A stretch of DNA of 64,000 bases, from NCBI GenBank assembly GCA_021791195.1, contig JAJYXB010000013.1, forward strand, positions 1 through 64,000, given 5' to 3'. The notes under the pieces were generated by a model. That model had not been told where the DNA came from. It worked only from the letters and a program-made list of their open reading frames with translations, and made no database searches. Shown here piece by piece: positions 39,932 to 59,452 of this stretch. A program made the position numbers and the translations under genes. Origin of the DNA: Actinomycetes bacterium (lineage in GTDB: Bacteria > Actinomycetota > Thermoleophilia > BMS3ABIN01). The stretch's first letter is position 1, and every line of letters begins with the position of its first letter.

Positions 39932-41086
39932 TTACGTCCCCGGGCCGCCACAGCCGGCGCGCTCCGCCGGCCGCCGCGGTTCCTCGATATTCCGCAAAAG
40001 GCGCGCACAGACTTCGTTGGCGACGAAGCGTCCGGCGCGCGTCAAACATATTTTATCACTGCCGGTCATGATGAATCCATTTCGGTGCAGGCTCTTTTCC
40101 TGCTCCAGATCGACCACAGCGGCAATTTCGCCGCGATCAGCGCCATGATCGCACCGCAAACCAAGCATCGCCCGCTCCCACAGCTTCAGCTCCGCCGTCA
40201 GATCCTCCGTCCTGCGAACATCTACAAACTTGCCGGTCCGGCCGATGTACCGCTCGAGATCGGGGATGTTTTGCCACCGCTTAAGTCCCACCGTACTCCA
40301 GGCGCCGGCGCCCAGTCCGAGATAATCGGCCCCCGCCCAGTACCCGAGATTATGGCGGCACTCCCGGCCAGGCAAGGCAAAGTTGCTGGTCTCGTACCAG
40401 CGGTATCCGGCAGCCTCGAGGATATCGACGACAATCTCGTAAAAATGGTCGCTTTCCGCGCCGGCCGCCTTCAGTTTGGCCTCCCAGCGCCGGGCGTACC
40501 CGCTGCCCGGCCTGATGGACAGTTCATAGCAGGAAAGATGATCCGGCTCAAGAGACAGCGCCGCGGCCAGGTCCTTTTCCAGCCCTGCCCGCGTCTGCCC
40601 GGGGATGCCGAAGATGAGATCCAGAGAGACGTTACCGTGCCCGGCCGCGCGGAGCGTCTTCATGGCCCTGGCGGCCTGCCCGGCGTCACCGGAGCGCTCC
40701 AGGTTCCGCCGCAAGCGCTCACTGAAACTCTGCACTCCCAGCGATATCCGCGTCGCCCCCGCGGCCAGCAGGGAGCCGGCCAGCGCCGGCGTCACCGTCT
40801 CCGGATTGGCCTCCACACTGATCTCGGCCTCCGCCGCGCACCGCCGCCGGACAGCCGCCAGCAGCCTGGCGAGCGGCCGCGCTCCGATGCGGGTAGGCGT
40901 GCCGCCGCCCAGATAGACGCTTTGCAGCGGCGCCATCAAGTCCGCGGCTTCCTCCAGCTCCGCGAGCAGCGATTCCAGGTATGCGGGCGCCCGCGCTTCC
41001 TTCCCGGACGTGGAATAAAAATCACAGTAACCGCAGCGGCGCGCGCAAAAAGGCAGGTGGATATATAAGTGAGCTACTCCGGACAT
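39932..41086 (-). CDS. hemW: Radical SAM heme chaperone HemW
   Basis: The 384-residue protein opens with LPFCARRCGYCDFYS, the CxxxCxxC cluster motif (C14, C18, C21), then VYLGGGTPTRI and SVEANPETV. HemW binds heme and delivers it to respiratory proteins; it is often mis-annotated as coproporphyrinogen dehydrogenase. It is the first gene of the minus-strand run hemW-hrcA-dnaJ and is divergent from the polysaccharide island that starts at 41208. Confidence 0.93.
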   Translation of the reverse strand: MSGVAHLYIHLPFCARRCGYCDFYSTSGKEARAPAYLESLLAELEEAADLMAPLQSVYLGGGTPTRIGARPLARLLAAVRRRCAAEAEISVEANPETVTPALAGSLLAAGATRISLGVQSFSERLRRNLERSGDAGQAARAMKTLRAAGHGNVSLDLIFGIPGQTRAGLEKDLAAALSLEPDHLSCYELSIRPGSGYARRWEAKLKAAGAESDHFYEIVVDILEAAGYRWYETSNFALPGRECRHNLGYWAGADYLGLGAGAWSTVGLKRWQNIPDLERYIGRTGKFVDVRRTEDLTAELKLWERAMLGLRCDHGADRGEIAAVVDLEQEKSLHRNGFIMTGSDKICLTRAGRFVANEVCARLLRNIEEPRRPAERAGCGGPGT

Positions 41087-41207
41087 GACCCTGATGCTAT
41101 CTGTTTGAGATTCAGCTTATATGCTATCATTGCAGGAAGCTTGTAGTCAGGCGTTCCCGAGTCAGGCGAGTGGCAATCAAGTCCCGTTAAATGATATCGA
41201 TTATCAA

Positions 41208-42281
41208 ATGAGCGATACGGTATCCGCAACCGACCTGACTGAGATCGGGCGGCAGCTCTTTGCCGGCGATCTCGTAAGGAGAAGTTACGACGTCCACGGG
41301 ATCGGTACCCGCCTGCTGACTGATTCAGCCGCGGTCGCGGCGGCGATTGACAGTTTTCTGTCTCCATTCGCATCCGGGAACAACGGCACAACCGGCGCCG
41401 GCATCGAAGTCTTCCTGTTTACCACGGATGAGCTAGATGAAAGGATGGCGGCGGTGCCACCAGGCGCGTCGCCGCTGTATGACTGGGGCCCGCTGAAGTT
41501 TTTTCATGCGGGGACGAGCCGTTTTCTGGAACTGGATACGCGAGCGCGCGCCCTGGCTGATGTCGAACATCGCCGCCTCGTGGGTTTTATCCGCCGGGAT
41601 GCCCTCGACTCCGGCTGGCTGGTCTCGCATCAGATCTTCTACCCCCTTTGGGGGCAGCTGATGAAAGAGTGCGGGCTTTACCCGTTTCACGCCGCGGGGT
41701 TGACCAGGAACAATACCGGCCTGCTGCTGGCCGGCCGCAGCGGCAGCGGCAAGTCGACGCTGACGCTGCAACTGGTAAGGCGCGGCTACGGCTGTCTGGG
41801 CGATGACACTGTCTTCCTGCGGCAGACCGGCAGCCGGGTGGAAGCGCTGGCGTTTCCGGAAGAGATCAACGTGACCGAAGAGACGCGCCGGCTGTTGCCC
41901 GAGCTTGCGAAAGTGGAGAAGTTCACGGTAGATCCGCTGCGGGATAAAGCTTCGTTCGAGCTGGAGTCGCTGTTCCCGGCCAGCAGCGTCAGCCGCACCG
42001 AGCCGGAGCTGCTTGTCTTTCCGGAGATCAGCGGCAAGGATGCCTCGACGCTGATGCCAGTGACCAGGACAGAAGCCCTGGCGCTGTGCATGCGATTCGG
42101 CTTTTTTTTCGTAGACCCGTCGACGGCAGGGCGGCACTTTGAGATACTTTCGGTACTGGTCAGACAGGCCGCGTGCCACCGGCTCGAGGCTGGCCTCGAC
42201 CAGCAGGAACTGGAGCGGACCGTGGAGTCCCTGGTTTCCACGGCCGGCGGCAACCGGTCACTAGACGAGGGTATGGCATGA
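41208..42281 (+). CDS. HprK-related kinase of a PqqD/B2 cassette
   Basis: The protein has an HPr-kinase-like P-loop domain with LLLAGRSGSGKSTL (GRSGSGKST at 176-184) and GDDTVFLR. It lacks the HPr kinase N-terminal domain. HprK-related kinases of this kind occur beside PqqD-like and transglutaminase-like proteins in lasso peptide clusters (where one is known to phosphorylate the precursor) and in polysaccharide loci. I start at ATG 41208; the frame is open to ATG 41121 but those codons are AT-rich and look noncoding. It overlaps the PqqD-like gene by ATGA. The substrate is unknown. Confidence 0.8.
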   Translation: MSDTVSATDLTEIGRQLFAGDLVRRSYDVHGIGTRLLTDSAAVAAAIDSFLSPFASGNNGTTGAGIEVFLFTTDELDERMAAVPPGASPLYDWGPLKFFHAGTSRFLELDTRARALADVEHRRLVGFIRRDALDSGWLVSHQIFYPLWGQLMKECGLYPFHAAGLTRNNTGLLLAGRSGSGKSTLTLQLVRRGYGCLGDDTVFLRQTGSRVEALAFPEEINVTEETRRLLPELAKVEKFTVDPLRDKASFELESLFPASSVSRTEPELLVFPEISGKDASTLMPVTRTEALALCMRFGFFFVDPSTAGRHFEILSVLVRQAACHRLEAGLDQQELERTVESLVSTAGGNRSLDEGMA

Positions 42282-42580
42282 TGCAAAAAAACAGTTTTTT
42301 GATCAAGGACAGCGACGTGCTGTTCACGTCCATGGGGGAAGACGCAGTCCTGCTGCACATCCAGCGGGGCGATTACTACAGCCTCAACCACGTAGGGGCA
42401 CGCCTATGGGTCCTCGCCGACGGCAGCAAGAGCATAGCCGATCTTGCCGGCCTGATCACCGAAGAATTCGACATCACCCGGGAACAGGCGGAAGCCGATA
42501 TCCTGGAACTTGCCGAGCAACTGCAAAAAGAGGGCCTGGTGACCGTAAGTGAAGCTCCTCAGGACTCTCAACCGGCTTAA
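42278..42580 (+). CDS. PqqD family protein (RRE-like peptide-binding domain)
   Basis: The 100-residue protein has VLFTSMGEDAVLLHIQRG, YYSLNHVGARLWVLADG and the C-terminal helices ITREQAEADILELAEQL, which form the PqqD winged-helix fold. PqqD-like domains bind leader peptides of ribosomally made natural products and deliver them to modifying enzymes. It overlaps the kinase gene by four bases and the B2-like gene by 32. This supports a three-protein module. Confidence 0.88.
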   Translation: MMQKNSFLIKDSDVLFTSMGEDAVLLHIQRGDYYSLNHVGARLWVLADGSKSIADLAGLITEEFDITREQAEADILELAEQLQKEGLVTVSEAPQDSQPA

Positions 42581-43019
42581 AGATCCCCGCGATCTCTGGC
42601 TCTTCCTGCAAATCCTGACGACTCTGGTTATGCTGCCGCGGAGGATCCGGCGGCTGAGCCTTTTGGATCTGCTTAACCGGATGGACCCCGGTGTCGGGAC
42701 CGGGCATCAAGACAGGTCGAAACTTGAGAAAACGGTAGGATTCGTGGATTCACTGCTGAAGTACCGCGTCTTCCGGCGTTACGGCAAATGTCTGCTACGC
42801 TCGCTGCTGCTTTTCCGCTTCCTGCGCCGGCAGGGCTGGCCGGTCGAGATCCATTTCGGCGTCCGCCGGACCGCCGCGGAACCACCCGCCGACATCGACC
42901 CCATCCCCAACAGCCTCGGCATCACCGGCCATAGCTGGCTGGTGCTGAATGGGGAGCCGTTTCTTGAAGCAGAAAGTCACCAAAAAAACTTCGCCACCAC
43001 TTTTTTTTATCCTCAATGA
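42549..43019 (+). CDS. Lasso-peptide B2-like transglutaminase-fold protease
   Basis: The 156-residue protein matches the Transglut_core3/lasso B2 pattern: YGKCLLRSLLLFRFLRRQG with the likely nucleophile C81, then EIHFGVRR, and GHSWLVLNGEPFLE with the likely catalytic H128. In lasso systems this protein cuts the leader peptide held by the PqqD-like partner. The start is GTG 42549. The end overlaps the DUF2079 gene by ATGA. No lasso cyclase (asparagine-synthetase-like) or precursor gene is visible nearby, so its target here is open. Confidence 0.85.
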   Translation: MKLLRTLNRLKDPRDLWLFLQILTTLVMLPRRIRRLSLLDLLNRMDPGVGTGHQDRSKLEKTVGFVDSLLKYRVFRRYGKCLLRSLLLFRFLRRQGWPVEIHFGVRRTAAEPPADIDPIPNSLGITGHSWLVLNGEPFLEAESHQKNFATTFFYPQ

Positions 43020-44905
43020 AATTTTTCACCTTCAGCTCGCTTCGCAGGTTTTCCTATGCAATTCCTCCAGCCGCCGGTTTTTTCGCTGGCGCTGTATTTG
43101 GTTCAGCTTTTACTGAGCCAAAACCTCATCTTAGCCCCGCGTTCATGCTTGTATCAGGATTTGTGGGCGCAGCTCTGCTGACTGCCCTTTGGCTGACAGT
43201 TTCATTTCTCGTTGCCATCAAAAACGGTAAAGGTAAACTTGCTCGCCGATTAAGCGTTTGGTTTGGGGTTGGTATGTTGCCACTCATCTCCTTTTCCCCT
43301 TACCTAATCCATCGGTCGGGATTAAATGAGATATCTGAGGAATTGCCGCCGCTGGGCGCCCGCTACGCGGCTACCGCTTTGATGCTGTTATCACTTCTAC
43401 TGATTTTTGTGCTGCTACGCCTCGTTCTGACCAGAGGAAAAAACAGCAAGATCTATCTGTTTCTAACTTCGCATCCTGTTTTAACACTTACGTTTATGGC
43501 AATTGCATGGCTGGCTGTTTTTCTCCCCATGGATGTTCTCAAGAATCAATACATGCAAGTCACCACGGTCAACAGCGCGGCTTTTCACGACGGGATGACC
43601 CATGTTTTTGACAGCCGTGGCTTCATGTATAGTTCATTGATTTACGGCAGCGGCGCCTCACTGTTCGCGGTCCACATCAACGCCGTTTTATTGCTGATAT
43701 TGCCATTATTCCGCCTTTGGCCAGACCCCCGATCGTTGCTATTTATTTCAGATGTGGCGCTTGCTGCGAGCGTGTTCCCTCTTTACCTTATCGCTCGCAT
43801 GCATTTCACAAAAGGCCTGAGCCTGTTACTTGCCTTGATGCTGATATTACATCCCACGCTGACCGCGCAACCAGGCCGATCTGACTTTTCCGAACTCAGG
43901 TTCATGCCAGTCTTGTTCTTAACCGCCGTTTACTTATTTGAGAAGAAGCGATTCTGGTGGTTTATGGGTATTTGCGCGCTAATGATGACTATACGCGAAG
44001 ACATGGGAATTTTCGTCGCCTTCTTCGGGATTTATGCTTTGATACGCCATTATCCACGAAGGTGGGTCCTGTCGTCCCTGGGTGCTGGACTCGCCGCATT
44101 TTTGTTTTTGGGAGCAGCCCTGCTCCCCCATCTTAGCCCAGGTGATAGCGCAATTCGCGTATCTGTCCGTTATTCCCACCTGGGCTCCAGTGGCAGCGAT
44201 ATCGTCAAAACAATCTTTTTCAGGCCCTGGAAGGTATTTCAGGCGGCTTTTGCAGGGCCTTCACACATTGGTGTAGCTTATGGCATTTTTCTCACATTCG
44301 GGCTGGGCATTGCCTTCTTGTCAGGCGCGATAATACTTGCCATTCCTGCAGTTGCCGAACTAATGCTTCAAAATACAACTAATTTCGCAAACTTTATGGC
44401 TCTACCGACTGTGCCAATCATGATGGTAGCCTTCATCTTTGGCCTCGACCGGTTTGATCGAATTGTCACGCGGCGTTGGAAAATTGACGCTGGCCGGGTT
44501 GCATTGATCACAGCAACCGTCATGTTCTTTTTAAGCATCTCTGCTTTCCATACCTGGTTCAATCCTGACATGTACCGGCCACGATACAATTACGATGCCG
44601 CTATCAAGGCTTTTAATATGGTCCCTGACAACGCAAAATTGATGATGCCGGAATATATGCTCGCCGATGGCAAACCCAACCAGACATTAAGAGGTTTCCA
44701 CCAGATCGTTTATCAAAATGAACTGAAAGGCAAATTTAATCTAACCGAAGATTACGTTATTATCGATCGACGTATTCCAAATCGAGATGCGAGAAACCAA
44801 TACTACCGAGGTCTGGCTGAAGTAACAAATTTATTAAATAACTCGAGTAACTTCACATGTGTATTTTCTCAAAACGATATCGAGCTATGGATTAGAAACC
44901 GGTAG
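43016..44905 (+). CDS. DUF2079 family polytopic membrane protein
   Basis: The 629-residue protein has about 12 hydrophobic segments and the DUF2079 features HPTLTAQPGRSDFSELRFMP, REDMGIFVAFFGIYAL and RVSVRYSHLG. DUF2079 proteins resemble GT-C glycosyltransferases but have no proven reaction. A C-terminal soluble part (about 520-629) has VPDNAKLMMPEYMLAD. The gene is translationally coupled to the B2-like gene, yet its base composition drops clearly towards AT. That suggests a different origin or later arrival. Confidence 0.82.
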   Translation: MKFFTFSSLRRFSYAIPPAAGFFAGAVFGSAFTEPKPHLSPAFMLVSGFVGAALLTALWLTVSFLVAIKNGKGKLARRLSVWFGVGMLPLISFSPYLIHRSGLNEISEELPPLGARYAATALMLLSLLLIFVLLRLVLTRGKNSKIYLFLTSHPVLTLTFMAIAWLAVFLPMDVLKNQYMQVTTVNSAAFHDGMTHVFDSRGFMYSSLIYGSGASLFAVHINAVLLLILPLFRLWPDPRSLLFISDVALAASVFPLYLIARMHFTKGLSLLLALMLILHPTLTAQPGRSDFSELRFMPVLFLTAVYLFEKKRFWWFMGICALMMTIREDMGIFVAFFGIYALIRHYPRRWVLSSLGAGLAAFLFLGAALLPHLSPGDSAIRVSVRYSHLGSSGSDIVKTIFFRPWKVFQAAFAGPSHIGVAYGIFLTFGLGIAFLSGAIILAIPAVAELMLQNTTNFANFMALPTVPIMMVAFIFGLDRFDRIVTRRWKIDAGRVALITATVMFFLSISAFHTWFNPDMYRPRYNYDAAIKAFNMVPDNAKLMMPEYMLADGKPNQTLRGFHQIVYQNELKGKFNLTEDYVIIDRRIPNRDARNQYYRGLAEVTNLLNNSSNFTCVFSQNDIELWIRNR

Positions 44906-45097: not shown

Positions 45098-46924
45098 TTA
45101 ATTATTCGGATAGTGGACGGAATTTCCGTCTGAAGTTAAGCCCTGGCCCGAGAAACTTGTGCTGAAATTACTGATACCGTTCGGTACCTTCCACTGAACC
45201 GTGAAAGCCGCATTGCCGCCTTCGGCTACGCTGCCGACCTGCAATGGCATTTTTGTGACGCCGTAGGCACCGCCGGAACCCCGCACGCCGGTGATGGTCA
45301 GGGCATTGACACTACCTGGTCCGTGGTTATCAACGCGGAGATCAACGGTAATAATCCTGCTCTGATAGTCGCTAAAATTTGCCCAATAAGTTTTTGTTTG
45401 GGACAAACTTAGACTGGGGGCCGCGGTGACTGTCGACTTGTACTGGTCGGAAAGCGTTTTTGTAATATCAAGATATGTGCTGCCGTAATTCACGCTATCC
45501 TCGATATGAGTATTTTCGTTGTACTCATTCCAGCTTGTGATCATGACCCAGTCTGGCTGGTTGTCAAGAACCGTTTGCCACATCTGCCGGTATGTATCGC
45601 CACCATTGCGTGGAACTACTACGCCCGGTGAATTTAGCCGCGTTGTATCCTCACCCGGAACGACCGTTCCCATCCAAAGTTTGCGCTGAGCGGTGGGGTC
45701 GGTCATTAACGAATATGTTTTAGTTGCAACTGAATTGGTTGACATAAACCAGGGAATGTTTGTAAAAACCGACGGATTATAGGTATCCAATCCATCAAAA
45801 GCCGTCAAATACCTGGGGTCGACGCTGTCAGCCATATAGAAAGCGTCTATTCCCTTCGCGTGCAGATCATCGAATATCTGCTTCCACTGATCCGGACTCA
45901 AGCCTCCATTGATGTTGGGATCGCGGCTTGTATTACCAGCCCAGTAAATAAATACCACCGGAACCTGCCTGACTGTGCCGTCAGGCATTTTCTTAGCCAT
46001 TTTTAAATAGCTTGGGGCAGTTCCAAAGTTCTGAACGATGTACGTAATCCATTGTTCAAGATATGCTGGATCTGGCTTGCAGCTGGAGTCAGGCAGACAC
46101 GACCAGCTATGCTTTGCGTTTGCCACCCTTGTTTCCAGGTAAACTGCCACTTTGAAATCGTGGCGCTGATTGGCGACATCCAGAAGCGTTCTGAACCGTG
46201 TGTCCGAATAGGTGCTCCCTGTACCCTGCCACGACGCGAGAAAGCCGTCGATGCCATGTGAGGTTGCTTCATTCACAATCCCATTTACGTCACTGAATGA
46301 TGCTGAATCGTAGGGCGTAACCGGCTTATCAATATGTATTGCATTCGGGTCTGTTGGCCAGGTGGTCCAGCTGTCAAGCTGGTACCAGGGATAGTACACA
46401 GCAAACACATGTTTTGGCCCCATGCTGCCTATATTCAGTGGCCCATTTTGAGATTCGGCATTGCCGCCAATTGAAATCTGTGCCTGGTTTCCATCCGGAG
46501 CGGTATCATCCCCGCTCGCCAGCAAAACTGGGTTGCTCAGATTATTGACATTATAAATGTCCACATGAGTTGTTTCCCCCCATCCTTTGTCAATCTTCCA
46601 CGTCCCGACCGTGGCAGTACCTGGGGTCACCAGTAGATCATATTGCACGCTGGCTCTGCTGCCAGCAACATTTTTACCAATAAAGACGCTGGTTGAGTCG
46701 GTCAGGGTATTTTGGGCATTGCCGGTCGTTAGAGAGCCTTTTGATGTGACAATTGTCTCACCCGCAGGCACCGTCAAACGACTCCAGTCAGATGTGGTCG
46801 TCATGACCACGCGTATTCGGTTCACCTGCTGCCCGGAATCATTCGCCGCGGCAAAAGCGCTGGTAACTCCACTGAAAACCAGCATGAAAGAGGCCAGGAA
46901 AAATATGACCAGCGTCCTTTTCAA
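45098..46924 (-). CDS. Secreted GH99/GH71-like glycoside hydrolase under c-di-GMP riboswitch
   Basis: I start at TTG 46924, six nt after GGAGGA, giving 608 residues. Residues 1-26 are a signal peptide (LVIFFLASFMLVFSG, cleavage near AFAA). The catalytic region has HVFAVYYPWYQLDSWTTWP, GIDGFLASWQGTGSTYSD and VMITSWNEYNENTHIED, as in GH99/GH71-like endo-acting mannosidase or glucanase relatives. A C-terminal beta-sandwich (about 505-608) may bind sugar or the wall. It is the last gene after a glycosyltransferase pair but has its own aptamer leader. A likely role is trimming or releasing surface polysaccharide. Confidence 0.82.
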   Translation of the reverse strand: MKRTLVIFFLASFMLVFSGVTSAFAAANDSGQQVNRIRVVMTTTSDWSRLTVPAGETIVTSKGSLTTGNAQNTLTDSTSVFIGKNVAGSRASVQYDLLVTPGTATVGTWKIDKGWGETTHVDIYNVNNLSNPVLLASGDDTAPDGNQAQISIGGNAESQNGPLNIGSMGPKHVFAVYYPWYQLDSWTTWPTDPNAIHIDKPVTPYDSASFSDVNGIVNEATSHGIDGFLASWQGTGSTYSDTRFRTLLDVANQRHDFKVAVYLETRVANAKHSWSCLPDSSCKPDPAYLEQWITYIVQNFGTAPSYLKMAKKMPDGTVRQVPVVFIYWAGNTSRDPNINGGLSPDQWKQIFDDLHAKGIDAFYMADSVDPRYLTAFDGLDTYNPSVFTNIPWFMSTNSVATKTYSLMTDPTAQRKLWMGTVVPGEDTTRLNSPGVVVPRNGGDTYRQMWQTVLDNQPDWVMITSWNEYNENTHIEDSVNYGSTYLDITKTLSDQYKSTVTAAPSLSLSQTKTYWANFSDYQSRIITVDLRVDNHGPGSVNALTITGVRGSGGAYGVTKMPLQVGSVAEGGNAAFTVQWKVPNGISNFSTSFSGQGLTSDGNSVHYPNN

Positions 46925-46934
46925 CGCCACTCCT

Positions 46935-46971
46935 CCAAGTGTTTAATTATGCCGAAAAGGAAAACGCTTGG
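46935..46971 (-). promoter_or_regulatory. Possible expression-platform hairpin of the c-di-GMP riboswitch
   Basis: On the minus strand CCAAGCGTTT can pair with AAACACTTGG with one C-A mismatch. The 3' arm covers the first two G of the GGAGGA ribosome site of the glycosidase-like gene, so folding would reduce translation. Confidence 0.4.
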
Positions 46972-46980
46972 ATAAAGCAG

Positions 46981-47063
46981 CCTCCTCCGGCAACCCGGCT
47001 AACTGCCTGGCGGCAGTCCCGTGGCTTTGCGCCCCCGCCTCGCGGCGGGTTTGCCCTGGAGCC
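46981..47063 (-). promoter_or_regulatory. Cyclic di-GMP-I (GEMM-I) riboswitch
   Basis: On the minus strand the sequence runs CTCCAGGGCAAACC, then a P2 stem CCCGCC/GGCGGG closed by a GCGA tetraloop, GGCGCAAAGCCACGGG, a P3 stem ACTGCC/GGCAGT, and AGCCGGGTTGCCGGAG. These are the conserved blocks of the GEMM-I class in the right order and spacing. CTCC and GGAG close P1. The aptamer lies 49 nt past the stop of the glycosyltransferase gene (47112) and about 57 nt before the start of the secreted glycosidase-like gene. Confidence 0.95.
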
Positions 47064-47111
47064 TCTCCCTACAAATTGATTCGGCAGGCAAAAGGAAAGC
47101 TAAAGGTGGGG

Positions 47112-48257
47112 TTACTTCAAAGTGTCCAGATAGCTGTCAAACTTCTCAACGAAGCGGTCCCAATCATACTGCTGCACTTCTCGCGCGGCCGCTTCGCCCA
47201 TTTTTCGTGTCAGGTCGGGATCACCAGCCAGCTTCGCCATAGCTTCGGCAAAAGCACCAGCCTCCGGTTCCACCAGAAAACCAGTGATCCCGTCCTTAAC
47301 GCTTTCAGCGGGCCCGCCACGATTGACTGAAATCACTGGCTTCCCGAATCCCATCGCTTCGAGCGGAACCATGCCCCAATCCTCATTCAGGCTGGGAAAG
47401 AGCAGGCAGTAGCTGGAGGCATATATCTGTCGCAATTCCTCGTCGGACGGATTTCGCAGGAATATGACATCATTACCGGTTCCCGCACGGCTAACAAGAC
47501 TTTGAAAATATTCCTCACTGCGTGGTTCGACAAGGCCCGCGATCCGAAGTTGAAAGTCGGCAAACTGTGGGCATTTTCGTTTGAATTCATGGAACGAATC
47601 GATTGCCAGCTCCACATTTTTGAACCATTTAATGCGCCCGGCGACCACGAAATATTTTTGATAATCCCATCTGGGCTTCATCAATGACGTGTCGAGGCCC
47701 GGATGCAATACTTTCACCTTCTCTGGCGGAGCAAGGCGAGCATTAATGATCCTTTTTCGCACCTCTTCGCTGTTGGCAAACGTGTAATAATAGTTCTTCC
47801 ACGCCCGGGCATCCAAAAATCTGAATACGGCGGAAAAAAACAAGAAAGCGGGAGTCAGGTTCCTGTGATTTTCCAGATATCTCTTACGGGTGAACGGATC
47901 GTGAATGACTTTCATTGGCGTGTGACAATAACAAATTACCGGAACACTGTGGTTACGGAAAGTAATAAAATCTCCAAGCCCTTCTGAACTTACAACCAAA
48001 GCCTGAAAACCGGCGAGATCGATTTTCTGTGTCAGAATTTTCAAGGCGGCACTGCTAACGGCAGAATATTTGCGACTGACCGGCACCCGGGAGAGTTCGA
48101 CTATTTTCAGTTGTCTAAATTCAGGGTAAGTCTGTTCGGCGAAATAATGACTGGTAAAAATTGTCCAGTCATGCCGGCTGCGGCACGCCAGTTCGAGAAT
48201 CGTCCGCTCCGCGCCTGACGTCAGATAAATCCATGGATAATATAGGGCGATCTTCAC
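47112..48257 (-). CDS. Glycosyltransferase family 4
   Basis: The 381-residue protein has the GT-B fold pattern: LTSGAERTILELA at the start, VVAGRIKWFKNVELAI and PSLNEDWGMVPLEAMGFGKPVIS, where E-x7-E contacts the sugar nucleotide, followed by GGPAESVKDGITG. It probably adds a hexose to a polysaccharide intermediate. The GTG start overlaps the GT2 stop by four bases. The donor and acceptor cannot be read from the sequence. Confidence 0.9.
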   Translation of the reverse strand: MKIALYYPWIYLTSGAERTILELACRSRHDWTIFTSHYFAEQTYPEFRQLKIVELSRVPVSRKYSAVSSAALKILTQKIDLAGFQALVVSSEGLGDFITFRNHSVPVICYCHTPMKVIHDPFTRKRYLENHRNLTPAFLFFSAVFRFLDARAWKNYYYTFANSEEVRKRIINARLAPPEKVKVLHPGLDTSLMKPRWDYQKYFVVAGRIKWFKNVELAIDSFHEFKRKCPQFADFQLRIAGLVEPRSEEYFQSLVSRAGTGNDVIFLRNPSDEELRQIYASSYCLLFPSLNEDWGMVPLEAMGFGKPVISVNRGGPAESVKDGITGFLVEPEAGAFAEAMAKLAGDPDLTRKMGEAAAREVQQYDWDRFVEKFDSYLDTLK

Positions 48258-49177
48258 ATTCTGGTCCCTGTCCGCCCACCGCGGGAAAACAGGCGCCTGA
48301 CCTTATCCCAACCGGAACCGTGTCCGCGCGCTGCGTCAAGCATCCAGCCGACGGACTGAACTGCGTATCCAAGCAATAGAACGGCCTGAAAGACAACAGT
48401 TGCCGGGCGGTTGTGATACTTTGAATAAAATGCGATCATGCCCTGCCTGACGGCGCCGACGGCCTTTCCTTTTTGTTTGCGCATGCTCCTGCCGGCATAA
48501 TGTTTGGCAACTGCGGCCGGCACGTAATACACCTTCCAGCCCGCCCGCTTCATCCGATAACACCAATCCACATCCTCGCAATACATGAAAACATCTGCGT
48601 CAAGAAGACCGACATCCGCCACCGCTTCTTTTCGTGCCATAAGAGCGCAGCCGCTGACCCATTCCACCAGCCGCACTTCCATATCATCCCTGTGCTCATA
48701 AAAACCCAGTGTCTTATCACCAACTTGCTGGCAAGCAGCTGGCAGGAAGAAATGAGCCAGCGCCGTTCTGATTGACTGATACCGTCCCTTGGAGCGCACC
48801 TGTAATGTTCCGTCTTCATTGATGACGCGCGGTCCGCAAATGCCCGCATCAGGATGGGCATCCATGAAATCAACCAGTCTCGGCAGCGAATGCTCGTAAA
48901 GGAGGGCGTCGTTGTTTAGTAGGAAATAATAACGGCCGCCGGCAAGCTCGATGGCCTGATTGTTTGCCCGTGAGAAACCAACGTTTTCGGTATTGCGGAT
49001 CAGCATCGCTTCCGGGAATTCCGTAGCAACCATTTCGGCGCTTTCATCGGAAGAAGCATTGTCGACGACAATGGTTTCAACGCTTAGACCGCCTTTACAA
49101 TCCTGGATGCTTTTCAGACATCCATGCAGATACTCCCGAAGATTCCAGTTGACTACAATGACAGATACGTCGTACAA
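48254..49177 (-). CDS. Glycosyltransferase family 2 (rhamnosyltransferase-like)
   Basis: The 307-residue GT-A enzyme has VSVIVVNWNLREYLHGCL, VVDNASSDESAEMV, LLNNDALLYEHSL (metal-binding region) and MYCEDVDWCYRM. This pattern is typical of rhamnosyl- or similar transferases of the WbbL type. C-terminal residues 250-270 are hydrophobic (VVFQAVLLLGYAVQ), a possible membrane contact. TTG start at 49177, six nt after AAGGA. Coupled to the GT4 gene. Confidence 0.9.
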   Translation of the reverse strand: MYDVSVIVVNWNLREYLHGCLKSIQDCKGGLSVETIVVDNASSDESAEMVATEFPEAMLIRNTENVGFSRANNQAIELAGGRYYFLLNNDALLYEHSLPRLVDFMDAHPDAGICGPRVINEDGTLQVRSKGRYQSIRTALAHFFLPAACQQVGDKTLGFYEHRDDMEVRLVEWVSGCALMARKEAVADVGLLDADVFMYCEDVDWCYRMKRAGWKVYYVPAAVAKHYAGRSMRKQKGKAVGAVRQGMIAFYSKYHNRPATVVFQAVLLLGYAVQSVGWMLDAARGHGSGWDKVRRLFSRGGRTGTRM

Positions 49178-49206
49178 ACTATTTCCTTATTCCTATTTCT
49201 TGACAT

Positions 49207-49878
49207 CTACAGGTGTAATCTATTATTTGACATTGGCTTTGAATAAACCATAAAGGACTTTGTTAAGCCTAAGAACTTCTCATTAACAATTATTGCCTCA
49301 GAAAAGAGCTCTCTCAACTCTTTGCCCGTTAGAAGCCTCACTGACTCCACAAGCTCCACAGCCGTTTGCAATTCCGGATTGTGCAATTTATAGCGCCTGC
49401 CAATATAATCAAATTTCAGAAGAGCAGTTTGTAATTTGTGTGGTAAATAATGAAACAGCGGCAGACGAAAATGAGTTTCAAACGGAAAGTAATAATTCGG
49501 TGTTTGTAGAAAATATCCGCTACCAACCCTTTTGATTTCTTGAGCCATTCTACGTTGCTGCTTGAAATCGCCTACGTGCTCGATTACCGAATTAGAAAAG
49601 ACAACGTCAAATTCGTTATCTTGGAATTCAGCCATGTCGCAAGCATCCCCGACATGGCTGGTGAACCGTGGATGAATCGTTTCAGTATCGGTTAAATTAA
49701 GAAGCACGATCTCGAGGCGGTCTAGCTCCTCGGAATCGATAGCCTCCCAAAAAAAGCGAGTGCCCCCCACATCAAGCACCCGCAGAAATTTCCCTGTTTG
49801 TAAGAAGAGGGAAATAAATAGATTGAATCTTCTTTTTCTAAAGTCTGTTGATTTAAGCCGAATTCTTTTCACGTACAC
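49207..49878 (-). CDS. SAM-dependent methyltransferase, class I
   Basis: The 223-residue protein has motif I LRVLDVGG, the Asp-containing GDACDMAEF and VVFSNSVIEHVGDF, a Methyltransf_11 pattern. The first 35 residues are basic. In this setting it could methylate a sugar or cap a polysaccharide, but a lipid or quinone substrate is not excluded. GTG start at 49878 after AAGG. It is divergent from the radical SAM gene across 156 nt. Confidence 0.82.
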   Translation of the reverse strand: MYVKRIRLKSTDFRKRRFNLFISLFLQTGKFLRVLDVGGTRFFWEAIDSEELDRLEIVLLNLTDTETIHPRFTSHVGDACDMAEFQDNEFDVVFSNSVIEHVGDFKQQRRMAQEIKRVGSGYFLQTPNYYFPFETHFRLPLFHYLPHKLQTALLKFDYIGRRYKLHNPELQTAVELVESVRLLTGKELRELFSEAIIVNEKFLGLTKSFMVYSKPMSNNRLHL

Positions 49879-50034
49879 ATGCCTTATCTCATTTAAGAGG
49901 ATGATATCAAAATCTTGAAATTTTGGTTTTTCCCGCTCCTGAGCATGGATGGATGAATAAACTACTTGCCAGTAGAGAGTTACTCTTCACAGTGCTATCA
50001 TGCTTGAAGGACTAACCTTCCGTGGAGCCCCATT

Positions 50035-51210
50035 ATGTTCCCAAAAGGAGAAATGCTGAGCAATTTCATGCAGGACGCAAAAATTCTTGCAGGCATTGTC
50101 TCGCGACGCGTTCTGACCGGCCCCCACTCCGTCCAAATTAGCATCGTCGACGCTTGCAATTACCGTTGCATCATGTGCTGGGAGCATTCCTCCGAACTCA
50201 ATGGTTTGGGCGCGGATCCCATTGCCCGCGATTATCATGAGAACAAGAAATATAAGAAGACCGTGATGGATCTTAAAGTCTTCAAGTCTCTTATTACCAG
50301 TCTTGCCAGCAGCGGTACGGGTCATATCAGCCTGGCGGGCATCGGTGAGCCTCTCATGCACAAGCACATAGTCGAAGCGATCGCCTTCGCGCGGGAGAAT
50401 GGCATCAAGGTCTGGCTCACCACGAACGGCTCACGGCTAAATCAGGATATCATGAAGGAGTTAGCCGCCTGCGGGCTTGAAGACATAAATGTCAGCATCA
50501 ACGCCGGCAATGCCGCCGAATACAGCCTTGTTCATTCCAATCAGAATAATTCGATGTATGATCAGATTATTGACCACCTGGTCTGGTTTAAGGGATATAA
50601 GCATGAACGTGGGCTGACTCAACCGCAACTCACATTGTCGAATGTAGTCTGCAATCTCAACTATCATCGCAGCGTGGAGATGATGCGGGCCGGTATCGCC
50701 ACTGGCGCCCGAAATGTCTTTTATCGTCCTATCGATGTTTACGAACAAACGCGCGACTTTGCCTTGTCTGACGCACATTTGGATGAGCTTCGAAGCTCAT
50801 TCGCTGCCTGCGAAGACCTCGCGGACAGGCATGGAATTCAAACCAATATTTCCATGTTTGAAAAACTGCTCGCATTACGCGACACACAAACGATTCCCGC
50901 ACCCTGCTTCGCCGGATGGGTGGCGCCCTTCGTGCTCGCTAACGGTGATGTAACATTTTGCTGCCTCAGCCGTGAAGTTCTGGGTAATCTTTCCGAGAGC
51001 TCTTTTGGAGATATCTGGTTTTCCTCTTCACGCCGCAGCCTGAACGAAACCGCTCTCAGGATGCATAAGACCCAGGAGGCGGTTCCGAACAGCCGCTGCC
51101 TCGGTTGCGAGCAATCCTTCCAGAACCTGAAGGTCAACCGGTTTCTCTGGCCCCTGCTTGGCAAAAGCAAGGCTTCAGGCACGGCGGCGGCCATGCGCCG
51201 GGCCGTTTAA
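50035..51210 (+). CDS. Radical SAM protein with SPASM-like C-terminal cluster region
   Basis: The 391-residue protein has the cluster motif CNYRCIMC (C41, C45, C48), GHISLAGIGEPLMHKH and a C-terminal SPASM-like set: PCFAGWVAPFVLANGDVTFCC and SRCLGCEQS. Such enzymes mature peptides or act on sugars and nucleotides. It is the only plus-strand gene in this half of the island and lies between glycosyltransferase genes. The ATG follows GGAG at 7 nt. Its stop overlaps the stop of the opposing GT4 gene (shared TTAA). A 20-residue frame just upstream is noted but unproven as a substrate. Confidence 0.88.
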   Translation: MFPKGEMLSNFMQDAKILAGIVSRRVLTGPHSVQISIVDACNYRCIMCWEHSSELNGLGADPIARDYHENKKYKKTVMDLKVFKSLITSLASSGTGHISLAGIGEPLMHKHIVEAIAFARENGIKVWLTTNGSRLNQDIMKELAACGLEDINVSINAGNAAEYSLVHSNQNNSMYDQIIDHLVWFKGYKHERGLTQPQLTLSNVVCNLNYHRSVEMMRAGIATGARNVFYRPIDVYEQTRDFALSDAHLDELRSSFAACEDLADRHGIQTNISMFEKLLALRDTQTIPAPCFAGWVAPFVLANGDVTFCCLSREVLGNLSESSFGDIWFSSSRRSLNETALRMHKTQEAVPNSRCLGCEQSFQNLKVNRFLWPLLGKSKASGTAAAMRRAV

Positions 51211-52382
51211 GGCTTTTTTCCCGCGATAGCTCCATACAGCTCTTCCATGCGGGAGACCATCAAGTCCGCCCTGTATTTGCGCTCCCATAGTTCCCGGGCA
51301 GCGACGCCCATTATCCGGCGGCGTTTTTTATCTCCCAGGAGCTGTTGGATTGCATTTGCCAGGCCTTTGGGGTCATGCGGCCGAACCAGCAAACCTGTCC
51401 GGTCCTGAATAACTATTTCCCTTACACCGCCCACTTCAGTAGCCACCATCGGCTTTCCTAGCATCGCAGCCTCCAGCAACGTCAGTGGCAACCCCTCGGA
51501 CAGCGAAGGCAAGACAACCAAGTCAGATGCGGCCATGATCCCGAGGGCATCATTGCGTCTTCCCGCGACCAGTAATCTGCCGCCAAATTTTACGTCTTGT
51601 GCTCGCCGGCGGAGCTCCGCTTCCATGGGGCCCTCGCCTACAACCAGAAAATATGTCGTCTGGTCCTGACCGGCAATAATATCAATGGCATCCAAGAGGT
51701 CTTGAGAGCCCTTGTGAAAGGCTATCCGGCCAACACATATAACTACTTTGTCCGTTTCGCTTATTCCAAAATCCATCCTGATATCTTCAATAATATTTTT
51801 ATCAAGGTCGCAATCCTCGATGCCGTTGGGCACAACGATGATTTTGTTCCCGTTTATCCTTAATGTCTTAATGAGTTCGTCACGGGTAGCATCACAAACG
51901 GCGACGATTTTTTGCGAAAGCGAGGCAGTAAGTCTGTCTATGCCCCCGTACTGAACTTTCTTCATCAGACTCACAACGGCGCCCATTTCCTCTTCATGAC
52001 CACCACTGAACTGCCTCCAAGAGCCGTGCACGCTGGCGACCATCTGGTTGCGCCTTTTCATGGAAACAGCAGCCAGCACGGTAAAGAAGTGAGCGCGCGG
52101 CCCATGGGAGTGGATGATGTCTGGCTGAAAGGAGTCGATCGTTCTCTGCACATATCTGATGGCTCGCCAGGCCAGAAAAATGTTACGCTGCGCTTTCAGC
52201 TCAAGAAAAGGAGTGGCTCTGGTCGGAATTCCCACCGCTTCAAAATCAGCCAGGACCGGCCCGTCACACAAACTCAGCAGGCAAACTTCATGCCCGCGAG
52301 CCGCCAGGCATCTGGAAAGAGTTAGCGTATGTACCGGGAGCCCACCGTACTCAGCGTTGGCAATAACTTGCAGGATTTTCAT
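51207..52382 (-). CDS. Glycosyltransferase family 4
   Basis: The 391-residue enzyme starts MKILQVIANAEYGGLPVHTL and has VICVGRIAFHKGSQDLLDAI and PSLSEGLPLTLLEAAMLGKP with the E-x7-E donor site, then GGVREIVIQDRTG. It is a second retaining GT-B enzyme of the island. It lies 13 nt after the ligase-like gene in the same direction, so it belongs to the minus-strand polysaccharide transcript. Confidence 0.9.
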   Translation of the reverse strand: MKILQVIANAEYGGLPVHTLTLSRCLAARGHEVCLLSLCDGPVLADFEAVGIPTRATPFLELKAQRNIFLAWRAIRYVQRTIDSFQPDIIHSHGPRAHFFTVLAAVSMKRRNQMVASVHGSWRQFSGGHEEEMGAVVSLMKKVQYGGIDRLTASLSQKIVAVCDATRDELIKTLRINGNKIIVVPNGIEDCDLDKNIIEDIRMDFGISETDKVVICVGRIAFHKGSQDLLDAIDIIAGQDQTTYFLVVGEGPMEAELRRRAQDVKFGGRLLVAGRRNDALGIMAASDLVVLPSLSEGLPLTLLEAAMLGKPMVATEVGGVREIVIQDRTGLLVRPHDPKGLANAIQQLLGDKKRRRIMGVAARELWERKYRADLMVSRMEELYGAIAGKKP

Positions 52383-52395
52383 CTGGGGGCAACCG

Positions 52396-53811
52396 TCAAG
52401 TCTCCACGCTCGCCAGCTTATACTGGCCGGCAGTTTCCAATTGCTCCTGTTCTTGCGTATTTGTCATGCGCGTGGCAGCTGCGACAAGCCCGGCCATCGC
52501 CCAAAAATATGTCTGTGTGGCGCCGGCGCGAAACAGATTGTCTGTAATGCTTCCAAGCAGGTATGAAATTACAACTGCGATCATGACCAGCGCCAGTATT
52601 TTCAGTTGCGTGTCCTCGAATTTAAAATAAGACCTGACCGCGCCCCTGAAAACACCGAAGATGGCGGCCAGGTAACATCCCAAACCTATGACACCGCTGT
52701 CAACAAGCAGATGCACGTAATCATTATGCGGCATATAGTAGTATCCCAAGCCCTCTTCTGCGTACACCCCGTAGCTTCCAAGACCATTACCCACTATTGG
52801 ACTCGCATAGAACTTCGGCAACAGGTACCGCCACATCTCGACACGGAAAAACATGGAGCCCTGACCCTGGGAAAAGCCCAGCGCCTCCTGGAATCGCTCA
52901 AGAATACTGGGCACCAGGAGTAACAGGATAATAATTCCCACAGGTACAAGGAGCAGCATTTTTCTGTAGCGGAAGGATCCTACAACCAATAAACCGGCAA
53001 CCAAATCGATCCAGGCCGCACGTGCATATGTGTAAATCAGCGAAAACAGCATGGCGCCGCACAGCACCACATAGACGATTCTTTGCCAGCGAACTCTGGT
53101 CTCAATCAGCAGAGGAATGCAAAGCAGCAGGATCATCATCAAATAAGTCGCATAGGCGTTAGGGTGAGGGAAGGCCGCAAAAATACGGTTGAACCCCGGC
53201 GTATCATGATTGCCTGTATCAGTCACGAATTGATAAACCCCCATCGCCAAAGGAGGAATCGTCGAAATCACAAGCGCCGCCAGCAGCATTTTTAAATATC
53301 TTCTATTGGCAAACAGCTCCGCGATGAGGATGAACAGCACGATCGTACTGGCAGTGCCTACCCAATCCTTGAAACCGCTCATTTTATCTTCTGACATCGT
53401 GAGCGTGACCGGCAGCGTGGCAAACAGGAAGATCAGCATGGGCCCAACCACTGAAACTTCCCATATCTTTACCTTATTGACAATAATGTAGATGAAGCCG
53501 CCAAAAAGAATTGCCGCACCCAAAACCCCCAGCATCTGCATGCTAAGGCCGCCCACTGAGATCCGGGTCGGGCCCAGAAAAGCCTCCATCAGCCCCCGAA
53601 CGGCGATGTAAACAAGAATGAAAATGCGGATGTCAATCACAAAAAGCCCGGCGAGAATCAGCCCGAGCATCAGCCCAAAATAGGTCGCCGGATGGAGAAG
53701 GCCCAGCGCCAGTGGTATGAGCGCGGCGAGCGCAACGAAGACGATTAACGAAACAACGGGTTTAATATATGCCATGCTGGATATTTTCGGACCGGTCACA
53801 CTCTCACCCAC
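52396..53811 (-). CDS. O-antigen ligase / polymerase (Wzy_C) family membrane protein
   Basis: The 471-residue protein has about 12 membrane helices and a large loop with VGNGLGSYGVYAEEGLGYYYMPHNDYVHLLVDSGVIG, read here in parts; the central H-N-D-Y-V-H pattern is the Wzy_C/WaaL signature. It would polymerise repeat units or transfer the finished chain to an acceptor. It begins directly at the end of the phosphodiesterase gene. In a monoderm the likely role is polymerisation or attachment to the cell wall rather than to lipid A. Confidence 0.85.
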   Translation of the reverse strand: MGESVTGPKISSMAYIKPVVSLIVFVALAALIPLALGLLHPATYFGLMLGLILAGLFVIDIRIFILVYIAVRGLMEAFLGPTRISVGGLSMQMLGVLGAAILFGGFIYIIVNKVKIWEVSVVGPMLIFLFATLPVTLTMSEDKMSGFKDWVGTASTIVLFILIAELFANRRYLKMLLAALVISTIPPLAMGVYQFVTDTGNHDTPGFNRIFAAFPHPNAYATYLMMILLLCIPLLIETRVRWQRIVYVVLCGAMLFSLIYTYARAAWIDLVAGLLVVGSFRYRKMLLLVPVGIIILLLLVPSILERFQEALGFSQGQGSMFFRVEMWRYLLPKFYASPIVGNGLGSYGVYAEEGLGYYYMPHNDYVHLLVDSGVIGLGCYLAAIFGVFRGAVRSYFKFEDTQLKILALVMIAVVISYLLGSITDNLFRAGATQTYFWAMAGLVAAATRMTNTQEQEQLETAGQYKLASVET

Positions 53812-55428
53812 TCAGCTCAGATATCCCATTCCGCGAAGTTGTTCCTCAATCGCATCAGCCTCTTCCTGACTGTAAACATCATCATCGGCGGCTGAACGCA
53901 TGGATGTATCCTCGGCGTCACCAGAAACGGGATTCTTTGAAACAAAATCGTGCCTGAAGATTCCCGCCAGTACTTTGCCGTCCATGTGCTGCGGCACCGG
54001 CAAACCCATTGAGTATAGAATAGTCGGCGCAGCATCGATTATTCGTGCATTTTCGACTCCACCAATTCCGATGTTCGGCCCGTAAGCCATGAATATGCCG
54101 TCGGCATGATGAGCGCCATGTGGGTCTTCTGAACGGTCTTCAACCAGCGTTTTTCTCAAAATACCATCGTGAACATAACACCGGTAGTCGTCAAGAACTG
54201 GCACCAGGTCCGGCGCAACCCACGCAAAGTCACCATGATAAAGTTCGTCCTTGAAACTGATTGAACTTACCAGCTCGATTCCATCGTGCGGATTGATGAA
54301 ACGTTTCAGTTTATCGGCAATCTCCCTGACAGTATTTTCATACTCGGCTCCCTGGGCTATCAGGCCATGTTTATCACGATCTACCAGGTTGATAAACAAC
54401 CCCTGCTCTCGCGAGTAGGCGGCTGACCTGCCCCAGTCAACGAGATTATTCATGCCGCGTTCCCTGAGCCGCCCGCCTAGCCCCGAGGACAGAAATTTGA
54501 CCATTCTGCCTGACCGCAACCGTTTGTATCCGGGCATCCACATCTGCTTTCCAGCACTTGCTAAATTAAAGAAGCCCTCGCTTTTAAGCCAGTTATTCAT
54601 GATAAATTCCGATCGCAGCTCCGTAAACCCGTGGTCGGAAATAATGAAAACATTCGTTTCATTGCCCAGCCCGGCAATAATATCACCGATGATTCCATCC
54701 AGCATGCCGTACAGCTGCAGTATCTCTTTTCTGAACAGTTCACCCGTCCTGGTGTCATAAAGAGAGCATTTCTCATCCAGATATTTCCAGTAGACATGCT
54801 GGAGGCGGTCAGGCGTGACAAAAACCATCATAACGAAGTCACAGGGGTGATGCTTCAGCATGTGCTGATACGCTGCCCGCCTGCCTTCCATTGATTTGCG
54901 CAGCGGCTTAAGCACATGCATATTGCCCGAATCATTCACAGGCACCACCGGCACATCGACAATATATTCAGTTTCCAGGGAACCAATCTCACCCTCCAGC
55001 GACTCAGGATATGTAAAGTTTCTTGACCGCTCGGGTGTCATCATTCCCGTGATCATGTAGCCATCGACTTTTTCGGGAGGATAAGTCAACGGCAGGTTTA
55101 TCAAACCCGTGCTTATGCCATGGTCATTCAGGATCTGCCAGATCTTCTTGGAGCCCATGACCCTGGAGTTGGAAAGCTCGCGCCGCTTCGTAACTGGATT
55201 AAAGAAGGTAAAACCGTAGATACCGTGCTTCCCGGGATTGACCCCGGTATAAAAGGAACTCCATGCCGGCGGGGTATATGGAGGCTGTGTCGACTTCAAT
55301 ATTCCACAGCAGCTTTTAGCCAGAAGCTCAGCAAAATTAGGCATTAACCCACTAGCCGCCAGCGGTTTCAGCAGGTCAAAAGTTGCGCCATCGAGGCCGA
55401 TGACGACCGTTTTCGGAACGGACTTTAT
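53812..55428 (-). CDS. Alkaline-phosphatase-superfamily phosphodiesterase (5' end unclear)
   Basis: The protein is a type I phosphodiesterase/nucleotide pyrophosphatase relative: VVIGLDGATFD (metal Asp), PPYTPPAWSSFYTG (Thr nucleophile), TPDRLQHVYW and ISDHGF. The first in-frame ATG (55344) would lose the GLDG metal site, so the true start must be upstream. No ATG, GTG or TTG exists in frame between there and a TAA near 55455; ATA 55428 is the upstream limit I use. A different frame with GTG GTG or ATG 55472 joins it if one base is skipped back at the G5 tract 55430-55434. It may add or remove phosphodiester-linked groups on the polysaccharide. Confidence 0.78.
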   Translation of the reverse strand: MKSVPKTVVIGLDGATFDLLKPLAASGLMPNFAELLAKSCCGILKSTQPPYTPPAWSSFYTGVNPGKHGIYGFTFFNPVTKRRELSNSRVMGSKKIWQILNDHGISTGLINLPLTYPPEKVDGYMITGMMTPERSRNFTYPESLEGEIGSLETEYIVDVPVVPVNDSGNMHVLKPLRKSMEGRRAAYQHMLKHHPCDFVMMVFVTPDRLQHVYWKYLDEKCSLYDTRTGELFRKEILQLYGMLDGIIGDIIAGLGNETNVFIISDHGFTELRSEFIMNNWLKSEGFFNLASAGKQMWMPGYKRLRSGRMVKFLSSGLGGRLRERGMNNLVDWGRSAAYSREQGLFINLVDRDKHGLIAQGAEYENTVREIADKLKRFINPHDGIELVSSISFKDELYHGDFAWVAPDLVPVLDDYRCYVHDGILRKTLVEDRSEDPHGAHHADGIFMAYGPNIGIGGVENARIIDAAPTILYSMGLPVPQHMDGKVLAGIFRHDFVSKNPVSGDAEDTSMRSAADDDVYSQEEADAIEEQLRGMGYLS

Positions 55429-55558
55429 TCCCCCACCACCTTCCCAATTACTAACTTAAGTAATTCTACCATGTATTCTTTGTTTTTCCTGAAAATATTT
55501 CCACATCAGCCACGGCAGTCGGCTCTGTAGGTAGCAAAATCACAGCCGGGAATCTGAT

Positions 55559-57142: not shown

Positions 57143-57226
57143 GACCCCCGCCGCACAGCCAAAAAACGTATTTCATCGGCTCGTCCCGGAGGAGCTTCGC
57201 GATTCTGTTGCAAAAAAAGAGTCAGT

Positions 57227-58102
57227 CTAGGGAGCAGTCTTATTACTTCGGCGTCGATCCATAACGGCGGCGGCAATGATGCCGATAAGCAGACCTGCCA
57301 CGGCCGCAACGACCCCAGTCTTGAGAAACGCCGGAGCAGCTTTCGAAGTTGGCACGACTGCGGGAGACATCACACTGAGGCTGTTTGCATCCAGCGCCTC
57401 ATTAATCTGCATCCTGGCAATGATGTCTGAATATTGCTTGCGGGAATCCGTCAGGCCATTTACCTGGTCCTGCAGTTCATCGATGCGCGCATTGCGCGCG
57501 GCAACGTCCCCCCCTGTCTGCGTCTTTAGCTTCTCACTTTCATTCCTGACGGAAGCCAGCTTCTGATCGATAGGAGCGATTTGTTGTTTATTTACCTGAT
57601 CGATAAATTGATTTGCAGCGTTTAAGTTCACTTTTTGTGCTTGCTCAATCAGTACCGTCGAGAGCGAATTCGCCGCATACATGGCTACGGCAGCATTGTC
57701 GGAAGTGGCATCGATGTGAATCAAATCGTTGCCGTTGCCTGTCTCTGCCTCGCCTCTGGAGGAATAGCTGAAATTGATATCAGCCGCAGGAACCCCTAGC
57801 TGTGTCTGGACCTTGCTTTTGGCTTCATCAAAGACGCTCGCTGAGTCCAGCAATTTCAGATATGTCTGAGTCTGTGGCTGAATCGAGGAAGGCAGCGATT
57901 GCCGGCTGATTAAATTGCCCTGACCGGGATTCCCAAGCAGCGAATTCACCTGGCCCACCTCGAGCACGGCCGTCGCCTGATAATGCCGCGGCAGAACCAG
58001 AAATACGACGATATCGACCAGTGCAAACAGCACCGCGACACCGAGTATGATCCATTTCCGCCGCCAGAGCCTGCTCATGTATTCTGCGAGTTCCACTATC
58101 AT
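57227..58102 (-). CDS. Wzz-type polysaccharide chain-length regulator
   Basis: The 291-residue protein has helix 1 (about 17-37), an exposed region with coiled coil (about 160-220, with IDELQDQVNGLTDSRKQYSD), and helix 2 (about 260-280). No tyrosine-kinase domain is attached. Such proteins set the chain length of Wzx/Wzy polysaccharides. It lies between the nucleotidyltransferase and flippase genes. Confidence 0.87.
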   Translation of the reverse strand: MIVELAEYMSRLWRRKWIILGVAVLFALVDIVVFLVLPRHYQATAVLEVGQVNSLLGNPGQGNLISRQSLPSSIQPQTQTYLKLLDSASVFDEAKSKVQTQLGVPAADINFSYSSRGEAETGNGNDLIHIDATSDNAAVAMYAANSLSTVLIEQAQKVNLNAANQFIDQVNKQQIAPIDQKLASVRNESEKLKTQTGGDVAARNARIDELQDQVNGLTDSRKQYSDIIARMQINEALDANSLSVMSPAVVPTSKAAPAFLKTGVVAAVAGLLIGIIAAAVMDRRRSNKTAP

Positions 58103-58159
58103 CTCCCTCTTAAATCGATTCCAGTTATTTTGATTACGAACCCTTTCGCGCCATTCATC

Positions 58160-59413: not shown

Positions 59414-59452
59414 GCCTTCCGTTGCAACGATGACGGCAGAACCTGGTATTCC

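Follow-up and report, generated by a model that had tools for sequence, protein, structure and literature searches.

A c-di-GMP-I aptamer precedes the gene for a secreted GH99-like glycosidase at the end of an EPS locus of uncultured Actinomycetota

The known targets of GEMM-I (c-di-GMP-I) riboswitches are mainly motility, pili and adhesins. In the 64 kb of DNA analysed here (the window, by which we mean the whole stretch), an aptamer of this class stands in front of a gene for a secreted glycosidase-like protein at the end of a polysaccharide biosynthesis locus. This raises the questions of whether c-di-GMP controls the gene, with which sign, and what the enzyme cuts. The answer that we consider fairly probable is that the riboswitch controls this secreted GH99-like glycosidase, likely as an OFF switch, and that the enzyme cuts the polymer of its own locus. 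Binding of c-di-GMP would refold the leader RNA and alter translation of the enzyme; once exported, the enzyme would most likely act on polymer made by the same locus, and a fall in c-di-GMP would lead the cell to trim or release its own matrix.

The aptamer and the gene behind it

The gene and its leader comprise the following features:

46986 to 47065, minus strand: GEMM-I (c-di-GMP-I) aptamer, from the RF01051 match and G at position 20
46922 to 46985, minus strand: expression platform, a 61-nt linker, with SD GGAGG at 46936-46932 and start codon TTG at 46924-46922
46928 to 46941, minus strand: candidate SD hairpin CACTT-GGAG-GAGTG, from folding alone
45098 to 46924, minus strand: secreted GH99-like glycosidase gene, from the signal peptide, Pfam GH99 and aligned glutamates

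Screening of the whole window against 4227 Rfam families with cmscan gave a single above-threshold match, RF01051 (c-di-GMP-I). The alignment scores 66.8 bits (E 6.7e-11) against a gathering score of 35 and covers model positions 1-87 of 87, so that the aptamer is not truncated. Position 20 discriminates c-di-GMP from cGAMP aptamers, as seen in the role of G20A (PMC6274999). In the window this nucleotide is G (AGGGCAAACC), i.e. the c-di-GMP type, and a cGAMP-I (GEMM-Ib) identity, which needs A there, was rejected. The window aptamer is an unremarkable example of a known riboswitch class, and its assignment is well supported. The preliminary description had recognized GEMM-I from conserved blocks, all of which are present, and had placed it directly before the gene; both points are borne out, the aptamer lying in the 5' leader, on the strand of the gene and 61 nt upstream of TTG 46924, the start coordinate used in that description. 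The 2.15 Mb genome of the window holds 13 GGDEF matches, which makes it very likely that c-di-GMP is produced, and three further GEMM-I aptamers, whose downstream genes encode a type IV pilin and two kinds of small secreted protein.

The open reading frame ends at 45098 and could open at GTG 46930 or TTG 46924. We consider TTG 46924 the better start: it is preceded by GGAGG at a distance of 7 nt, and a TTG that likewise follows an SD aligns with it in the G016 ortholog (see later in the text); GTG 46930 was rejected because the SD is too near. The product begins with a signal peptide that is typical as judged by eye (MKRTLVIFFLASFMLVFSGVTSAFA-A), followed by an N-terminal domain also present in distant homologs, a GH99-type catalytic domain and a C-terminal domain of ∼110 aa. 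Glyco_hydro_99 matches with 37.9 bits against a Pfam cut-off of 33 (profile positions 128-328 of 341), and GH71 falls just under its cut-off (32.6 versus 34), in keeping with the secreted GH99/GH71-like protein first described. The catalytic-site glutamates E469 and E472 (numbering from GTG 46930) are present in an NE(W/Y)xE motif, the window sequence ITSWNEYNE aligning with ITSFNEWHE of the endo-alpha-mannosidase 4acy, and both are invariant across seven homologs. The window protein shares this two-glutamate motif, three residues apart, with the GH99 endo-alpha-mannosidase/mannanase structures (4acy, 4ad1) and with Pfam GH71/WbsX; compared with 4acy and 4ad1, it is distant in sequence (about 25 bits to solved structures) and carries the additional N- and C-terminal domains. 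Structure prediction with a TIM barrel as criterion, from two sequences only, gave a poor model (mean pLDDT 44.7).

The WbsX profile also passes just over its cut-off (26.4 versus 25.1) and the overall similarity is weak, which would fit a WbsX-type transferase or a carbohydrate-binding structural protein with no hydrolase activity. However, such a protein is hard to reconcile with the secretion signal and with two GH99 glutamates that are correctly spaced, aligned to solved endo-alpha-mannosidases and invariant in the homologs, and we regard a non-hydrolase as quite improbable.

The C-terminal domain (window 45098-45430, residues 500-609; YW.SY.DY ... YP) has weak DUF11 similarity. It is matched in all 19 genomes of the window's family, with 7-36 matches per genome on many secreted proteins, and is therefore not itself a mark of riboswitch control. 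This lineage-specific domain is possibly a secretion or attachment module.

The polysaccharide locus and its exchangeable enzymes

The enzyme gene is bordered by the polysaccharide genes on one side and by a conserved flank on the other:

47112 to 48257, minus strand: GT4-type glycosyltransferase gene directly upstream of the enzyme gene (Pfam Glycos_transf_1)
48254 to 62438, minus strand: polysaccharide biosynthesis locus
39932 to 44905, mixed strands: conserved flank used as synteny anchor, with HemW (minus), HPr-kinase-like (plus), lasso-B2/transglutaminase-like (plus) and DUF2079 (plus) genes

The locus contains GT2 and GT4 genes, a Wzy/O-antigen ligase, phosphodiesterases, a Wzx-like flippase, Wzz, a nucleotidyltransferase and a polyprenyl sugar-phosphotransferase, as well as a radical SAM/SPASM gene on the plus strand. 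The surface polysaccharide island of the preliminary description is thus recovered, with its sugar phosphotransferase, Wzx-type flippase, Wzy/O-antigen ligase, Wzz and several glycosyltransferases. The same flank genes mark this edge of the locus in relatives. Apart from this, the HPr-kinase-like, lasso-B2/transglutaminase-like, radical SAM/SPASM and NTP_transf_5 genes (41121-43019, 50035-51210 and 58160-59413) form a conserved EPS-locus set that recalls peptide-modification cassettes.

The enzyme gene follows the glycosyltransferase gene at 188 bp on the same strand, and read-through from the polysaccharide operon is therefore possible. The gene had been called stand-alone, which is accordingly correct only in part. 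No promoter was identified upstream of the window gene; a sigma-28-like candidate in the window, TTTAGCTT-N11-GCCGAATC, was discarded, being not above shuffled sequence (p about 0.58), as was coupling via a short ORF that runs up to the start codon, which was seen by eye in the window and is not open in G016. Taken together, the short same-strand distance and the lack of a clear promoter would suit a relic aptamer on a gene expressed by operon read-through, to which c-di-GMP no longer matters. We hold this to be very improbable: the aptamer is full-length and high-scoring and has been kept in the ortholog despite a diverged leader, and the riboswitch would still be present on read-through transcripts.

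The window belongs to a family of uncultured Actinomycetota represented by 19 genomes. A search of 399 genomes of the class found a single close homolog of the enzyme. It is in G016, a deep-mine metagenome genome of another genus, deposited as 'Thermoleophilia bacterium isolate DeMMO3_11' (58% identity; the contig breaks at a repeat some 29 codons after the gene begins). This ortholog carries GEMM-I in its leader, the remaining leader sequence being diverged. The aptamer-gene pair sought in relatives is therefore found in the sole close ortholog, and other secreted enzymes hold a like position elsewhere. GH99-like homologs occur in 10 of 397 Actinomycetota genomes, the window's own included, and no GEMM-I was found in the flanks of those outside the window's family. 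G016 also has a second GH99-like copy in tandem (L149, G016:C38:1-5148), which is truncated and interrupted after about residue 173 by an IS21-like element.

In the window, the riboswitch and the enzyme gene are placed between DUF2079 and the GT4 glycosyltransferase gene. These two neighbours adjoin without the enzyme in G017 (same genus as G016), G011:C96 (88% identity in a neighbouring gene), G009, G007, G010 and G013, and the homologous blocks are separated by 277 bp in G011:C96 but by 2416 bp in the window. The riboswitch-enzyme unit thus looks cassette-like.

A total of 59 GEMM-I aptamers were found in 18 of the 19 family genomes and were assigned to classes by our reading of the downstream genes. 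They precede 14 type IV pilins, 12 secreted proteins of ∼130 aa, secreted proteins of ∼190 aa at 12 loci and of 109 aa at two, seven GH26 enzymes located elsewhere (two of them Pfam-checked) and 12 secreted, mostly glycosidase-like, EPS-locus proteins. The latter are of four kinds: GH99-like in the window and G016; PslG/GH39-like in G006 (E 8e-8 to PslG) and G010; a 570-aa family in G002, G003, G004, G005, G007, G013 and G015; and a relative of that family in G008. Profile comparison of the 570-aa family with Pfam and PDB detected an fn3-like domain alone and no recognised catalytic domain. All 12 proteins carry the C-terminal domain of the window protein. Not every related gene is linked to a riboswitch, as a second 570-aa-family gene in G007 has none.

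All 12 loci lie in or at the edge of a polysaccharide locus of the window type, recognised through matches with the HemW, HPr-kinase-like, lasso-B2-like, DUF2079, Wzx, phosphodiesterase and glycosyltransferase genes of the window (in G002 and G016 only the conserved flank is on the contig). Of the loci of other GEMM-I classes, nine were tested and none had such genes. The presence of the enzyme is patchy and its kind varies between genomes. The window would accordingly be one case of a family-wide layout in which the control has been kept and the enzyme swapped, presumably to match the local polymer. On our reading, the enzyme is exchanged with the polymer and riboswitch control is retained or regained; closing helices (described below) from different enzyme classes show no sequence relationship, and repeated gain would be in line with this. 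The broader proposal, that EPS loci throughout this lineage tend to carry a GEMM-I-gated depolymerase, exchanged with the polymer while the control is kept and working with no protein receptor, is plausible, though we would put it slightly short of an even chance. The comparison of loci gives better motivation to the earlier suggestion that the enzyme may trim or release polymer.

Aptamers with A at position 20, a change that shifts GEMM-I towards 3',3'-cGAMP, were observed only in G004:C3, G005:C10 and G016:C24 (G004:C3:4894, G005:C10:35102 and G016:C24:25540). The first two are leaders of 570-aa EPS-locus enzymes and belong to two genomes of the window's own genus.

Mode and direction of the switch

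In the close-coupled leaders of the family, the start codon lies 6-21 nt past the aptamer, whose flanks pair with one another across the SD or the start codon. The closing helix is GCACUU/AAGUGC in the 570-aa family, with the GUG start inside the helix, GGCACCG/CGGUGCC in G008, and CCAAC/GUUGG plus GGUAA/UUACC in G006. Over nine non-redundant EPS-locus leaders, cognate flanks pair at -20.5 kcal/mol on average against -16.3 kcal/mol for permuted ones, a value reached by 2 of 5000 permutations; within the GH26 class the same test is uninformative (3324 of 5000), the flanks being near-identical. In Vc2, a riboswitch that acts on translation, switching takes place through P1 (PMC9262584). Since ligand stabilises P1, the close-coupled EPS-locus leaders are predicted to be OFF switches, that is, c-di-GMP is predicted to repress their enzymes.

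The window leader conforms to neither of the two layouts of the lineage. Between the aptamer and the gene (46986 to 46924) there is no terminator-like hairpin with a T-run, so the transcriptional, terminator-type GEMM-I found before pilins was rejected. The close-coupled translational type was also rejected, as no cognate helix covers the SD or the start codon: for a closing helix P0 in the window and the G016 ortholog, cognate pairing was no better than non-cognate. The candidate SD hairpin is not conserved as such in G016, and folding suggests that a part of it, ACTTGG (46940-46935), may instead pair with the aptamer strand CCGGGT (46998-46993). Folding thus yields a weak alternative, with aptamer CCGGGU paired to ACUUGG beside the SD, or the GGAG-loop hairpin when the aptamer is held. 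Ribosome-site accessibility computed with ViennaRNA was almost equal with and without the aptamer fold and gave no clear switch. The hairpin overlapping the ribosome site, put forward earlier as a plausible switch, is consequently not established, and the closing helix of the close-coupled leaders is absent.

By analogy with the relatives, our preferred reading for the window gene is that c-di-GMP controls its translation and that the likelier sign is repression, i.e. lower translation at high c-di-GMP. The opposite sign would mean that high c-di-GMP raises translation and that the enzyme helps to build, size or mature the polymer during attachment. GEMM-I can indeed work as an ON or an OFF switch (PMC9262584), the window leader is without the closing helix that predicts OFF in the relatives, and the unconstrained fold pairs aptamer CCGGGU just upstream of the SD, a pairing that binding would break. 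However, the close-coupled EPS-locus relatives predict OFF, and it would be strange for the sign to differ between loci of one kind; an ON switch is in our judgement unlikely, though it deserves serious consideration.

Secreted hydrolases under GEMM-I and known systems

Across the class, GEMM-I occurs in 117 of 299 genomes. Secreted GHL15-type putative glycosidases are encoded behind four of 40 leaders from outside the family (L220, L235 and L247 over the Pfam cut-off; L227 judged by eye to be closely homologous to L220), and behind a fifth lies the gene of a protein that matches PslG weakly (E 0.01); these five genes start 8-17 nt behind the aptamer. About 10 of the 40 precede secreted subtilase-like proteins, of which one checked member passes Pfam S8. 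The subtilase-like targets recur in another family of the class, f3 (L211-L218, L224, L242, L082 and L084). GEMM-I thus has secreted hydrolases among its recurrent targets, and the EPS-locus form is the specific variant described here.

These proteases and GHL15 enzymes, the GEMM-I aptamers before chitinase genes of Aeromonas hydrophila (PMC6366702) and the sharing of the C-terminal domain with many secreted proteins of the family would all be consistent with an enzyme that digests foreign glycans, its position at the EPS locus being incidental and c-di-GMP coupling foraging to the sessile or motile state. An incidental position is difficult to reconcile with the distribution of these enzyme types (12 of 12 at an EPS locus, against 0 of 9 for other classes) and with the PslG-like nature of two of them, and we consider scavenging rather improbable. 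The cutting of the locus's own polymer remains our preferred reading. The Aeromonas chitinases resemble the window case in having GEMM-I before a secreted glycosidase; however, they target an external polymer, whereas the window gene lies in a biosynthesis locus where the enzyme is exchanged between genomes.

Compared with the reference members of RF01051, Vc2 of Vibrio cholerae and Cd1 of Clostridioides difficile, the window aptamer is likewise full-length, has G20 and lies in the leader of a gene for a cell-surface or secreted product. Vc2 acts on translation through P1 (PMC9262584). Unlike in Vc2 and Cd1, the target is a secreted EPS-locus glycosidase in an uncultured actinobacterial family, with 61 nt from aptamer to start codon. 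Pseudomonas PslG (GH39) and PelA (GH166) offer a parallel for a glycosidase within a polymer-making locus; the PslG fold family occupies the window-type position in two relatives, the window enzyme itself being GH99-type. For Psl and Pel in Pseudomonas, c-di-GMP works on promoters or on the synthase, and is not known to act via a riboswitch on the hydrolase gene. The activity of PelA, also an EPS-locus hydrolase, makes the released form of Pel (PMC9894940). In C. difficile, Zmp1/PPEP-1 with CD2831 is a c-di-GMP-controlled system in which a secreted hydrolase frees surface material (PMC4591827); the logic is similar, but Zmp1/PPEP-1 is a protease that cuts adhesins and no glycosidase in a polysaccharide locus.

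We found no paper in the open literature, to which the search was confined, on GEMM-I and EPS-locus glycosidases, and the repeated use of this riboswitch on swappable glycosidases of EPS loci appears to be undescribed. If the proposed control is true, matrix release would have its own messenger-sensing switch, through RNA control by c-di-GMP within the polymer locus, and whether low c-di-GMP turns on self-trimming of the coat becomes testable. GEMM-I aptamers at EPS-locus edges could also serve as a guide to polymer-matched depolymerases for uncharacterised polysaccharides.

Finally, several observations concern the other GEMM-I classes of the family. In six genomes, the genes of a GH26 enzyme and of a small secreted protein, each behind a separate GEMM-I, are transcribed divergently about 4.5-10 kb apart (L046, L047, L053, L057, L042 and L060). 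The aptamers of small secreted proteins have FliA/WhiG-type elements, TAAA-N15-GCCGATAA, about 6-25 nt upstream (L005, L006 and relatives, G000:C25:147238, G000:C24:167054, G006:C7:44764 and others), which are mostly above shuffled sequence, and every family genome encodes a FliA/WhiG-family sigma factor. In Streptomyces, WhiG is itself under c-di-GMP control, so that the small secreted-protein genes might be doubly controlled by c-di-GMP. The pilin leaders (L007, G000:C14:44970-45067 and others) carry a terminator with a T-run, the 5' arm of which repeats the complement of the aptamer strand GGCAAACCAC, with 10 nt perfect in most; this layout points to a transcriptional switch that is predicted to turn the pilin OFF at high c-di-GMP. 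Shortly before the L007 pilin leader lies the end of a sigma-factor-like gene (G000:C14:44249-44842).
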